Origin: Halorubrum vacuolatum
Lineage (GTDB): Archaea > Halobacteriota > Halobacteria > Halobacteriales > Haloferacaceae
Assembly (NCBI RefSeq): GCF_900188065.1
Contig: NZ_FZNQ01000005.1
Location: forward strand, 1 to 64,000
Direction of reading: 5' to 3'
Length of the DNA: 64,000 bases
Under the pieces are notes generated by a model. It had not been told where the DNA came from. It saw only the letters and a program-made list of their open reading frames with translations, and searched no databases. The first letter of the stretch is position 1; each line of letters begins with the position of its first letter. The translations under genes were made by a program, and so were the position numbers. Shown one piece after another: positions 3,320-8,478 of the stretch.

Positions 3320-3636
3320 CCGGGAAGTTGCGGTCGTAGCGGTCCGACAAACGGGACGACCGCAATGGAACTGCTGCCCTCTCGTCAGCAACAGCTGGCT
3401 GTTTGAGTGGCTCTCGCGGGTTCGACGCTAAACGCCTGATATCGGATCTGACATTTTCCGGGAAGGTATTATATTGTTGAACCGATCGAGTATTCGACGG
3501 TGAAAAGCCAGATGAGCGATCAATCAGCGCGGCGGCACACGGGACATCGTCACTCCCTATGACGCCCACTGGCGGATTCGATTCGAGACGTCAATCCGGC
3601 CCGCATGATCGGCTGGTGGCGGATGAGTCGCTGTCA
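3320..3636. other. Intergenic region with a probable promoter
   Basis: These 317 bases between priL and the kinase gene hold no convincing gene. The frame from 3559 extends the kinase by 26 residues, but it lacks domain similarity. An AT-rich stretch near 3465-3480 (GGTATTATATTGTTG) is the best promoter candidate for the kinase. A small inverted repeat AACAGC/GCTGTT lies near 3390-3403. I see no RNA gene here. Confidence 0.4.
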
Positions 3637-5841
3637 ATGACGGCCGCCACCGATCGAATCACGGTCCTCCATGTCGAGGACGACCCTGCGTTTGCAAGCC
3701 TGACTTCCGAATTCCTTGAACGGCATGCAGAGGCCCTTTCGGTGCACTCCGCACACTGTGCTGAGGAGGGGCTCGACTATCTCGAACACACCGAGGTCGA
3801 CTGCATCGTCTCCGATTACGAGATGCCGGGCCGGAACGGGATCGATTTCCTCGAAGCCGTCCGTGAGACGCATCCGGAGATCCCGTTCATCCTGTTTACC
3901 GGCCGAGGGTCCGAGGAAGTCGCGAGCGAGGCGATCTCGAAGGGTGTGACCGACTATCTCCAGAAGGGAACGGGAACGGAGCAGTACGAACTCCTCGCGA
4001 ACCGGATCACGAACGTCGTCGAAAAGAACCGCGTGGAACACGACCTGCGGGCCAGCCAGCGACAGCTCTCGTTGTTCATCGAACAGTCCCCGTTGGGAAT
4101 TCTCACCTACGATCGCGAGTTCACCATTACCGGCGTAAATCAGGTCGGTCAGGAGATCCTCGGGTACGACGAGGCGGAACTCCGCGGCGAGTCATGGACG
4201 GTGCTCGTTCCCGAGGACGAGTACGAACACGTCGAGGAGATCACACGGGAGTTGACCGAGGCGGGGGGCGGCTATCACAGCATCAATGAAAACCTTCGCA
4301 AGGACGGTGAGCGCATCATCTGTGAGTGGCATAACCGGGTCGTCACCGACGAGGACGGCGCGGTCGTCGGTATTTTCTCGCTGTTCGAGGATGTAACCGA
4401 CCGAGAAAAACGGAAACGACAACATCGACGCTTCCAGCGGGCCGTCGAATCGTCGGGGCATGCGATCTACTGTACGGACCCGGAGGGCACCATCGAATAC
4501 GTCAATCCCGCGTTCGAGGAACTGACTGGTTATACGGCCGCGGAAGCGATCGGGAAGACGCCACGGATCCTCCGATCGGGGGAACACGAGGAGTCGTTCT
4601 ATGAGGACCTTTGGCGGACCGTTCTCGACGGTGAGGTCTGGCGTGGGGAGGTGATCAACGAGGACAAAGACGGCGAACGCTACATCGTCGATCAGACGAT
4701 CGCCCCAGTGACCGATGCATCGGGATCCATCACCGAATTCGTCGCCGTCAACGCCGATATCACCGAACAACGATCGACCGAGCGGCAACTGGAGATCCTT
4801 CGGACCGCGATCGACAAGGCCCATGCCCCCCTCACGCTGTCTGATCCGACCGAGGAGGACAATCCATTAGTCTATGTCAACGAGGCATTTACGGAGGCCA
4901 CGGGCTACACGGAATCGGAAGCACTCGGCCGGAACTGCCGCTTCATGCAGGGCGAGGACACCGATCCCGAAACCGTCGCGCAGTTGCGCGAGGCGATCGA
5001 CGACGAGGAGCCGATCACCGTCGAGATTCGCAATTATCGAAAGGACGGGACCCCGTTCTGGAACGAGTTGACCGTCGTGCCGGTTTACGACGGTGCAGGC
5101 GATCTGATCCGATATCTCGGCACGCAGCGGGACGTGACCGAGCGGAGGAAGCATATCCACGAACTGCGGCGCCAGAACGACCGCCTCAACGAATTCGCCG
5201 GCGTTGTGTCCCATGACCTCCGTAACCCGCTCAATGTCGCTGCAGGACGACTCCAGCTCGCGAAGGACGCGTGCGACAACGAACACTTGTCTCACGTCGA
5301 AGCCGCCCTCGATCGAATGAAGACGCTTATCGACGATCTCTTGACGCTCGCTCGACAGGGGGAGATCGTCACCGATACCGAACCGATCGAGCTTTCCTCG
5401 CTCGTTGAACGAAGCTGGACGGCCGTCGAGACGGCAAACGCCTCACTCGCGGTCGAACTCGAGAGGGGGACCACGATCCGGGCGGATGAACCGCGGCTAA
5501 CACAAGTGGTAGAGAACTTGCTGCGAAACGCGATCGAACACGGTGGTTCGGACGTTACCGTGCGGGTCGGTGAACTCCCCGATGGGTTCTATATCGAAGA
5601 CGAGGGGCCTGGGATCCCCGAGCATAAGCGCGACAACGTGTTTGACGCCGGCTATTCCACGGCGCGGTCGGGCACCGGGTTCGGTCTGAGCATCGTCAGC
5701 CAGATCGTCAGCGCTCACGGATGGGACGTCTCCGTCACCGAAGGCGAGGCTGGCGGTGCCCGTTTCGAGATCACCGGTCTCGACGAGAAGGGGGCAGCCG
5801 GATATGAATCGGCTGGAGGGGACAACGGGGCGGTGAGCTAG
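3637..5841 (+). CDS. Receiver-PAS-PAS-LOV histidine kinase (putative blue-light sensor)
   Basis: This is a cytoplasmic signalling kinase of 734 residues with no membrane segment. In order it has: a receiver domain with phospho-acceptor D60 (SDYEMPGRNG), a conserved Thr (LFTGRG) and Lys (YLQKG); PAS 1 (about 140-260); PAS 2 (about 265-385); PAS 3 (about 390-505); HisKA with H526 (VSHDLRNPL); and an HATPase domain with N (ENLLRNAIEHG), DEGPGIP and GTGFGLSIV boxes. PAS 3 carries GRNCRFMQG with the flavin-reactive C434, NYRKDGTPFWN and GTQRDVT (Q497), which are hallmarks of a LOV flavin photosensor. I chose the start MTAATDRITVLHVEDD because it begins directly at the receiver fold. An upstream ATG at 3559 is possible. 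No output regulator is adjacent. Confidence 0.93.
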   Translation: MTAATDRITVLHVEDDPAFASLTSEFLERHAEALSVHSAHCAEEGLDYLEHTEVDCIVSDYEMPGRNGIDFLEAVRETHPEIPFILFTGRGSEEVASEAISKGVTDYLQKGTGTEQYELLANRITNVVEKNRVEHDLRASQRQLSLFIEQSPLGILTYDREFTITGVNQVGQEILGYDEAELRGESWTVLVPEDEYEHVEEITRELTEAGGGYHSINENLRKDGERIICEWHNRVVTDEDGAVVGIFSLFEDVTDREKRKRQHRRFQRAVESSGHAIYCTDPEGTIEYVNPAFEELTGYTAAEAIGKTPRILRSGEHEESFYEDLWRTVLDGEVWRGEVINEDKDGERYIVDQTIAPVTDASGSITEFVAVNADITEQRSTERQLEILRTAIDKAHAPLTLSDPTEEDNPLVYVNEAFTEATGYTESEALGRNCRFMQGEDTDPETVAQLREAIDDEEPITVEIRNYRKDGTPFWNELTVVPVYDGAGDLIRYLGTQRDVTERRKHIHELRRQNDRLNEFAGVVSHDLRNPLNVAAGRLQLAKDACDNEHLSHVEAALDRMKTLIDDLLTLARQGEIVTDTEPIELSSLVERSWTAVETANASLAVELERGTTIRADEPRLTQVVENLLRNAIEHGGSDVTVRVGELPDGFYIEDEGPGIPEHKRDNVFDAGYSTARSGTGFGLSIVSQIVSAHGWDVSVTEGEAGGARFEITGLDEKGAAGYESAGGDNGAVS

Positions 5842-5890
5842 CGTGATCGGCGGATCTCGCTTTTGCCTGCATGGGCACGCGCGACGACGG

Positions 5891-7170: not shown

Positions 7171-8478
7171 TCAGCGGCGATACGATCCCCGTCCGCCCGC
7201 GAGCCGTGGCCGACCGCCCCGGTCGACCGCCTTAAGCGCCTCCCGCGGAAGCGGGACGTCGCCGTGTCGAAGCGTGCCGAGAACCGTCGTCCGGTCGCCG
7301 TCGAGGGCGACCCGGAGGGTCGGCGCGAGGGTGCCGCCGAACCGTCTGAACTGCTCGGATTCGGGGAGTTCGGCGATGCCGTCGAGGGTCGCGCCGACGT
7401 AGTCGTAGTAATTAAAGAAGCTCACGACGAGCAGCTCGTCGCCGTGGTCGTAAGCGGTCCACGAGTAGGACTGAAACGGCGCGTTCGCCGGATTCGTCGC
7501 GACCATCCCGTGGCCGTTGAGCGGCCGATACTTGCCACGGAGATCGTCGGCGACGAAGCCGTAGAGGGCGTCATAGCCCTCGATCCCGGGTGCGAAGGTG
7601 TGCTGGTGACTGGAGATGAAAAGGTAGTACTGCCCGTCGCGGACGACGAGGTGGGGCCGTTCGAGCTCCTGATTGACACAGACGGCGTCCAAGAGGGGCG
7701 GTTCGAGCTCCCAGGCCATCGGGTCGTCGGTCGGCGATCGGGCGATCCCAATGCTCCCGTTGAACTCGGCGGCGACGGGGTCGCTGTCGCAGGGATTTGT
7801 CCCCTCCGGAACCGGGGTGTTGGCCTCGAAGACGAGGTACGTCTCGCCGTCGGCGGGGTCCTCGAAGAACCACGGATCCCGGAAGGTGTAGGTCATCCCA
7901 CGCGACTGGTCCTCCCGCTCGTACAGGTCGCCGTCGGGTTCGAGGAGGATCCGGTGGTCCCACTCGCCTTCGATCCGGAGGTCGGCGTCGTTAACGGCGA
8001 CCACCTCGCCGCCGGTCGCGCCCGCGATCCGCTGGGTGTACGTGAGCTCCTCCTCGCCGCGAAAGCCGGATGCGGTATAAAAGGCGTAGACGGCGCCGTC
8101 CTCATACATCGCGGAGCCGGCCCACTGGCGCGAGCCGAGGGCGTCGCCATCGAAGAGCGGTCCGCCGTGGATCCACGACCGACCGTCGGTCGAGTGGAAG
8201 TAGTGTATGGCGGCGACGTCGTGACGCTTGCCCGGAAGCAGGTCGTCCGTCGCCGTCAACGCGAGGATCACGCGATGTCCATCGATCTCCGCGAGCGAGC
8301 CATCGCGATTTCGCAGCGGCCAGGTGTCCCAGACGTGGAGCCCGTCGAAGGCATCCGTCTCCGGCGGATAGATCACCGGCGAGACGGTCCGATCGGTTCG
8401 TTCGAGCCGTTCGGCCGCCTCACGAGCCCACGTGGAGCGCCCGTCCGACCGAACGGGTGTCTCCGATGAGTCGGTCAT
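7171..8478 (-). CDS. Glycoside hydrolase family 68 protein (levansucrase/inulosucrase/invertase-like)
   Basis: This protein of 435 residues has the five-bladed propeller signatures of GH68. VWDTWPL carries the nucleophile D51, RQWAGSA matches the RxWSGSA box, TFRDPW gives the transition-state stabiliser D201, and ELERPHLVV gives the acid/base E273. GH68 enzymes split sucrose and transfer fructose to water (invertase) or to a growing fructan. No signal peptide, twin-Arg motif or membrane segment is visible, so it would act inside the cell, unlike most bacterial levansucrases. It stands alone between oppositely directed neighbours, with no sucrose transporter or fructokinase nearby. The start at 8478 is supported by the absence of a longer frame. 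Confidence 0.92.
   Translation of the reverse strand: MTDSSETPVRSDGRSTWAREAAERLERTDRTVSPVIYPPETDAFDGLHVWDTWPLRNRDGSLAEIDGHRVILALTATDDLLPGKRHDVAAIHYFHSTDGRSWIHGGPLFDGDALGSRQWAGSAMYEDGAVYAFYTASGFRGEEELTYTQRIAGATGGEVVAVNDADLRIEGEWDHRILLEPDGDLYEREDQSRGMTYTFRDPWFFEDPADGETYLVFEANTPVPEGTNPCDSDPVAAEFNGSIGIARSPTDDPMAWELEPPLLDAVCVNQELERPHLVVRDGQYYLFISSHQHTFAPGIEGYDALYGFVADDLRGKYRPLNGHGMVATNPANAPFQSYSWTAYDHGDELLVVSFFNYYDYVGATLDGIAELPESEQFRRFGGTLAPTLRVALDGDRTTVLGTLRHGDVPLPREALKAVDRGGRPRLAGGRGSYRR

Follow-up and report, generated by a model that had tools for sequence, protein, structure and literature searches.

The window analysed here, that is, the whole 64-kb stretch of Halorubrum DNA, carries a gene for a histidine kinase of the order REC-PAS-PAS-LOV-HisKA-HATPase, the third PAS domain of which is a real LOV domain with its polar flavin contacts and adduct-forming cysteine all in place. 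We consider it highly probable that the protein is a cytoplasmic haloarchaeal sensor of the REC-(PAS)n-LOV-HK type that responds to blue light through an FMN-bound LOV domain and was acquired horizontally. A sequence-only reading had proposed this domain layout, which is borne out by Pfam, by matches to PDB sequences and by a structural model.

A LOV domain in a receiver-first kinase

Residues are numbered from the upstream ATG at 3559 unless stated, so that the adduct cysteine is C460; the earlier designation C434 is valid when counting from ATG 3637, which is the likelier start because homology among orthologues begins near residue 26 of the 760-residue form. The features of the locus are collected in Table 1.

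Table 1. Coordinates of the kinase gene, its domains and the surrounding insertion within the window
Feature	Position	Strand	Basis and remarks
Stretch missing from congeners, flanked by priL and a small, convergently oriented membrane-protein gene	3320-5890		2.5 kb; holds the kinase gene
REC-PAS-PAS-LOV-HisKA-HATPase histidine kinase, 734 aa	3637-5841	+	Pfam domains; alignment with orthologues begins near residue 26 of the 760-aa form
Alternative longer ORF, 760 aa	3559-5841	+	Upstream ATG 3559
N-terminal receiver (REC), residues 36-141	3664-3981	+	Pfam PF00072, E 2.9e-22
PAS1	4063-4407	+	Fastest-diverging part among orthologues; Pfam finds three PAS domains in the protein
PAS2, predicted FAD type (MmoS/NifL-like)	4417-4782	+	Best PDB match MmoS 3ewk; Trp352 and Asn367 conserved; Pro at the Aer/MmoS His position
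LOV domain, residues 414-530, motifs GRNCRFMQG, NYRKDG, FWN, LGTQRDVT	4798-5148	+	PDB matches, flavin-contact alignment, model
Codon of adduct-forming Cys (C460 / C434)	4936-4938	+	
J-alpha/linker helix, DVT motif to phospho-His	5149-5211	+	Alignment; 27 residues from Asp to His
HisKA dimerization/phosphoacceptor domain, residues 543-601, His552 (codon 5212-5214)	5185-5361	+	PF00512, E 2.4e-13
HATPase_c catalytic domain, residues 643-739	5485-5775	+	PF02518, E 1.1e-21

When the third PAS domain was compared with PDB sequences by phmmer, YtvA (4gcz, 2mwg and 2pr5) was retrieved first, at E values of 2e-34 to 5e-33, with other LOV proteins filling the top of the results; the best structural matches of its AlphaFold2 model (mean pLDDT 76) were also all LOV domains (E 1e-13). 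The similarity is far beyond chance, and the domain, at about 4798-5148, is slightly wider than the range of 4840-5150 first given for it. The kinase as a whole scores below the NCBIfam equivalog cut-offs of both BluLightHisKinLov (NF052306; 223.6 vs 450 bits) and YtvA_fam (222.6 vs 250 bits).

On an alignment marked with what we take to be the flavin-contact residues of AsLOV2, the focal domain retains every one of N425, N449, C450, R451, Q454, R467, N482, N492, G511 and Q513, and departs conservatively from AsLOV2 at six hydrophobic contacts (V416T, T418S, L453M, F494L, L496V and F509Y). The earlier statement that all canonical LOV positions are intact accordingly holds for the cysteine and the polar contacts and has to be relaxed for these six, which are mildly changed. 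Most of the six changes are common in haloarchaeal LOV domains, while L453M is rare; at the F509 position, an alignment of 49 such domains has 25 Tyr, 15 Trp and 8 Phe, in agreement with the reported prevalence of Trp or Tyr at this site in haloarchaeal LOVs, where both residues have been described as flavin deactivators (PMC12202551). Since L453M and F509Y adjoin the flavin, they could conceivably alter the lifetime of the adduct or quench the chromophore. The adduct cysteine itself is kept in 45 of the 49 aligned domains and in each of the four other full-length orthologues that were read.

Photoactivity of the focal domain is predicted to be likely because a haloarchaeal LOV domain of broadly the same type, ALovD-1, has been demonstrated to bind FMN and to undergo a photocycle at 0.5-3 M salt (PMC12202551), and the suggestion of a probable blue-light sensor is supported to that extent. 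Downstream of LOV, the spacing from Asp to His amounts to 27 residues in 16 of the 17 haloarchaeal LOV-HisKA kinases in which it could be measured and to 23 in one, a further match being spurious. The sensor-kinase signatures are complete, with H552, NLLRNAIEH, DEGPGIP and GTGFGL representing the phospho-His, N, G1 and G2 boxes.

At the other end of the protein, the receiver has all its site residues, located in the sequence as an acidic pair in HVEDDP, phospho-Asp86, Thr114 and Lys136. This N-terminal REC (PF00072), followed by PAS domains and a kinase module, has the archaeal REC-(PAS)n-HisKA-HATPase architecture (PMC5847659). Its position had been called uncommon, which does not hold for archaea: among their HisKA/HATPase/REC proteins the receiver is N-terminal in 445 and C-terminal in 53 (PMC5847659), and many haloarchaeal LOV kinases begin with REC.

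Further LOV proteins are encoded in the host genome. These include a PAS-LOV-PAS-HATPase kinase (G000:C54:261992-263818; L178:6993-8819), a REC-PAS-LOV-HisKA-HATPase kinase resembling those of most congeners (G000:C41:48117-50000; L179:6618-8501) and, on the same contig beyond the window, a Bat-like REC-LOV-GAF-HTH protein whose LOV cysteine is replaced by proline (GRNPRFLQG) and whose gene lies 4.4 kb from an MCP gene (G000:C68:70387-72432; L142:6388-8433). The Cys-to-Pro replacement within this last architecture recurs in G029, G043, G051 and G110.

Proposed signalling and a possible second flavin domain

While the sequence itself shows the flavin site of LOV, the length of the linker and the motifs for catalysis, we infer photochemistry and kinase control from the family. 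Blue light would excite FMN in the third PAS domain, upon which Cys460 would form a flavin-C4a adduct; Gln523 would then reorient, and the coiled linker would relay the signal to the helices of HisKA, so that autophosphorylation of His552 would be altered by light. The phospho-acceptor is probably a REC or HalX regulator encoded in trans. The receiver, which given D86, T114 and K136 can in principle be phosphorylated, probably serves for gating of the protein by another kinase; this would put it in the middle of a cascade, as has been proposed for kinases of the archaeal REC-first class (Galperin 2018, PMC5847659).

The two remaining PAS domains differ in what can be said of them. PAS1 yielded weak PDB matches alone, and therefore no ligand is proposed for it. 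PAS2 matched MmoS best (3ewk, E 2.9e-32), followed by the first PAS domain of NifL (2gj3, E 2e-16), with LOV proteins far weaker among the matches listed (1e-12 or worse, save for one short-LOV protein at 6e-14). FAD binding in PAS domains of the NifL/MmoS/Aer type has been associated with an F-alpha Trp together with a His, an Asn or both (PMC10468136); PAS2 has the former as W352 and a G-beta Asn as N367, and deviates in carrying Pro in place of the Aer/MmoS His and Asn at the position of Aer R115. Thirteen listed haloarchaeal LOV proteins other than the focal kinase also have an MmoS/NifL-like PAS adjoining LOV, with the Trp present in 12 and the Asn in 8. An AlphaFold2 model of PAS2 based on 3 sequences was poor (pLDDT 63). 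From its residues, PAS2 is predicted to bind FAD, and being of this type it probably contributes a redox input, so that the kinase may hold two flavins, one for redox and one for light.

Some LOV kinases may respond physiologically to something other than light in the main, and the focal protein could be chiefly a redox or oxygen sensor working through PAS2, its LOV domain binding flavin merely as a second redox cofactor. The match of PAS2 to MmoS, an FAD-dependent redox sensor, and the presence of Trp352 and Asn367 (PMC10468136) suit this idea, as do the HemAT oxygen transducers that adjoin the loci of relatives in G026 and G311 and the proline-bearing LOV paralogue of the host. We nevertheless judge it unlikely, for the retention of every polar LOV residue and of the cysteine, the latter also throughout the full-length orthologues, would be unexpected without selection for adduct chemistry, and PAS2 itself is short of the Aer/MmoS His and Arg.

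Probable acquisition of the gene and neighbourhood of its relatives

In 10 of 11 congeners, priL and the convergent small membrane-protein gene are adjacent, about 15-30 nt apart, at the site where the host carries the 2.5-kb stretch. Conserved synteny of the kinase with these two genes is ruled out, as its orthologues lie elsewhere and the congeners have no kinase there. The kinase gene has a GC content of 60.7%, compared with 67.2% for the window; full-length orthologues, at 59-64% identity, are sporadic (5 of 391 genomes, the host's own included); and in the LOV tree the orthologue in G080, a genome of a different family, forms a pair with one found in the host's family. Horizontal acquisition is the simplest reading of these data. 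Target-site repeats sought at the ends of the insertion amounted to an unconvincing 9-bp match. Elsewhere in the window, an ORF at 7171-8478 on the minus strand resembles by eye a glycoside hydrolase of the GH68 levansucrase type.

An acquired gene could also be a passenger, functionless in the host, with no partner regulator brought along, and the insertion at an otherwise conserved site, the scattered orthologues and the want of a partner gene nearby are compatible with that. It is nonetheless an improbable explanation, considering that the reading frame and the catalytic and sensor motifs are intact at about 58-64% identity to the orthologues and that a TATA-like stretch, recognised in the sequence at 3467-3475, appears to precede the gene.

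As first noted, no cognate regulator is encoded alongside: a search of the entire 64-kb window for a partner two-component gene or an MCP found neither, the kinase being the sole two-component gene found there. An MCP gene of the host at contig position 65.2 kb was dropped as a candidate partner, lying 60 kb off and closer to the Bat-like LOV protein.

The surroundings of the relatives are of another kind. All four other full-length orthologues have an MCP transducer gene upstream on the same strand: a HemAT (protoglobin-MCP) gene in G026, two MCP genes in G080, and, in G006 and G299, an MCP two genes upstream with a gene for a GAF/HATPase/PAS protein in between. In G311 the order is HemAT, a REC-HalX regulator and the LOV kinase, so that a regulator does occur at a relative's locus. 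If the nearest LOV relatives are taken as those scoring above 170 bits against the focal LOV domain, a threshold picked after seeing the data, an MCP lies within 3 kb at 6 of 8 independent loci but at just 1 of the 61 remaining LOV loci (Fisher p 2e-6), and within 5 kb at 6 of 8 as against 2 of 61 (p 6e-6). Defining the group by tree clade gave 6/10 vs 2/57 (p 5e-5), and restriction to loci fetched after the hypothesis was formed left an MCP at 3 of 5 (p 0.002). Related kinases without LOV had one nearby in 0 of 14 cases, and the chance expectation from the MCP density of the host genome is about 3-5%. HemAT stands beside two of the nearest relatives, and the type of MCP head varies by locus (protoglobin, PAS, multi-TM, HAMP). 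Because the cut-off was chosen after looking, the enrichment is a strong lead, short of proof.

Two additional loci may be recorded here. In G026 (L140:2575-13704) the focal kinase's orthologue is one of three LOV proteins clustered round the HemAT gene, the others being a second LOV kinase and a LOV-HTH protein that has GQDCRFLQ. In G080 a soluble MCP (L141:8907-10412), the N terminus of which resembles a truncated receiver by eye, is encoded directly upstream of the LOV kinase.

These neighbourhoods raise the possibility, which we regard as somewhat on the unlikely side, that the kinase belongs to a light or oxygen taxis branch and exchanges phosphate or contacts with MCP/CheA components of the sort encoded next to its relatives, with CheA phosphorylating its receiver or the kinase itself feeding a CheY or HalX regulator. 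The MCP genes upstream of the orthologues, their enrichment at the nearest loci, including those fetched later, their rarity around other LOV genes and absence near the non-LOV relatives, and the gene order in G311 all point this way; against it, the 64-kb window with the focal copy lacks an MCP, two of the eight nearest loci also have none, the heads differ between loci, the threshold was set post hoc, and adjacency is no proof of interaction. More tentatively still, a horizontally mobile family of haloarchaeal kinases might unite a redox PAS domain carrying FAD with a LOV domain carrying FMN in a single polypeptide, and act together with chemotaxis transducers, often the oxygen sensor HemAT; if true, this would provide a non-rhodopsin route by which blue light tunes oxygen and energy taxis in haloarchaea. 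A blue-light sensor kinase gained by horizontal transfer remains the reading that we favour for the focal gene.

Relation to known systems

YtvA of Bacillus subtilis and Brucella LOV-HK are among the nearest solved LOV structures by both sequence and fold. The output domain of YtvA is STAS, and Brucella LOV-HK is a LOV-PAS-HK protein without the REC found in the focal kinase. Within haloarchaea, LOV-like domains occur in 103 of 116 sampled genomes (match at E 1e-25), and LOV kinases form a class that is already described and common (Losi 2014; Valle 2025). Given how widespread they are and how normal an N-terminal REC is in archaea, the focal kinase belongs to this known class.

The portion of Losi 2014 (PMC4844311) drawn on here lists 167 archaeal LOV proteins, the halobacterial ones having an HTH in 30% of cases and otherwise being kinases with RR, GAF and PAS units; the focal protein is likewise a two-component kinase of Halobacteria whose extra units are just of these kinds. 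That portion states that no archaeal LOV protein had been investigated, contains no biochemistry, and does not include an MmoS-like PAS beside LOV or an MCP neighbourhood among the features it describes. The first functional characterization of an archaeal LOV, in vitro, concerned ALovD-1 of Halonotius (Valle 2025, PMC12202551), also from a PAS-containing haloarchaeal histidine kinase, which forms a 390-nm adduct and works in 3 M salt; it differs in having Tyr for the Phe of GxNCRF and its LOV as the second of three PAS domains, as opposed to GRNCRFM in the third PAS, with a receiver ahead, in the focal kinase. As for PAS2, its best matches are the FAD redox sensors MmoS and NifL, and its F-alpha Trp and G-beta Asn are placed as in Aer/MmoS, but equivalents of MmoS His132 and Arg195 are absent (Pro and Asn, respectively).

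Archaeal LOV proteins are widespread, with an in vivo role reported neither in that part of Losi 2014 (PMC4844311) nor in Valle 2025 (PMC12202551); for one lineage, the site of the insertion, the putative pair of flavin domains and the MCP, HemAT and HalX genes near the relatives offer concrete, testable partners and a possible link of blue light and redox to taxis without rhodopsins. In summary, despite its membership of an established class, the kinase appears from sequence comparison to be new in the MmoS/NifL type of its middle PAS domain, in its 2.5-kb insertion with sporadic orthologues and in the MCP linkage of its nearest LOV relatives.
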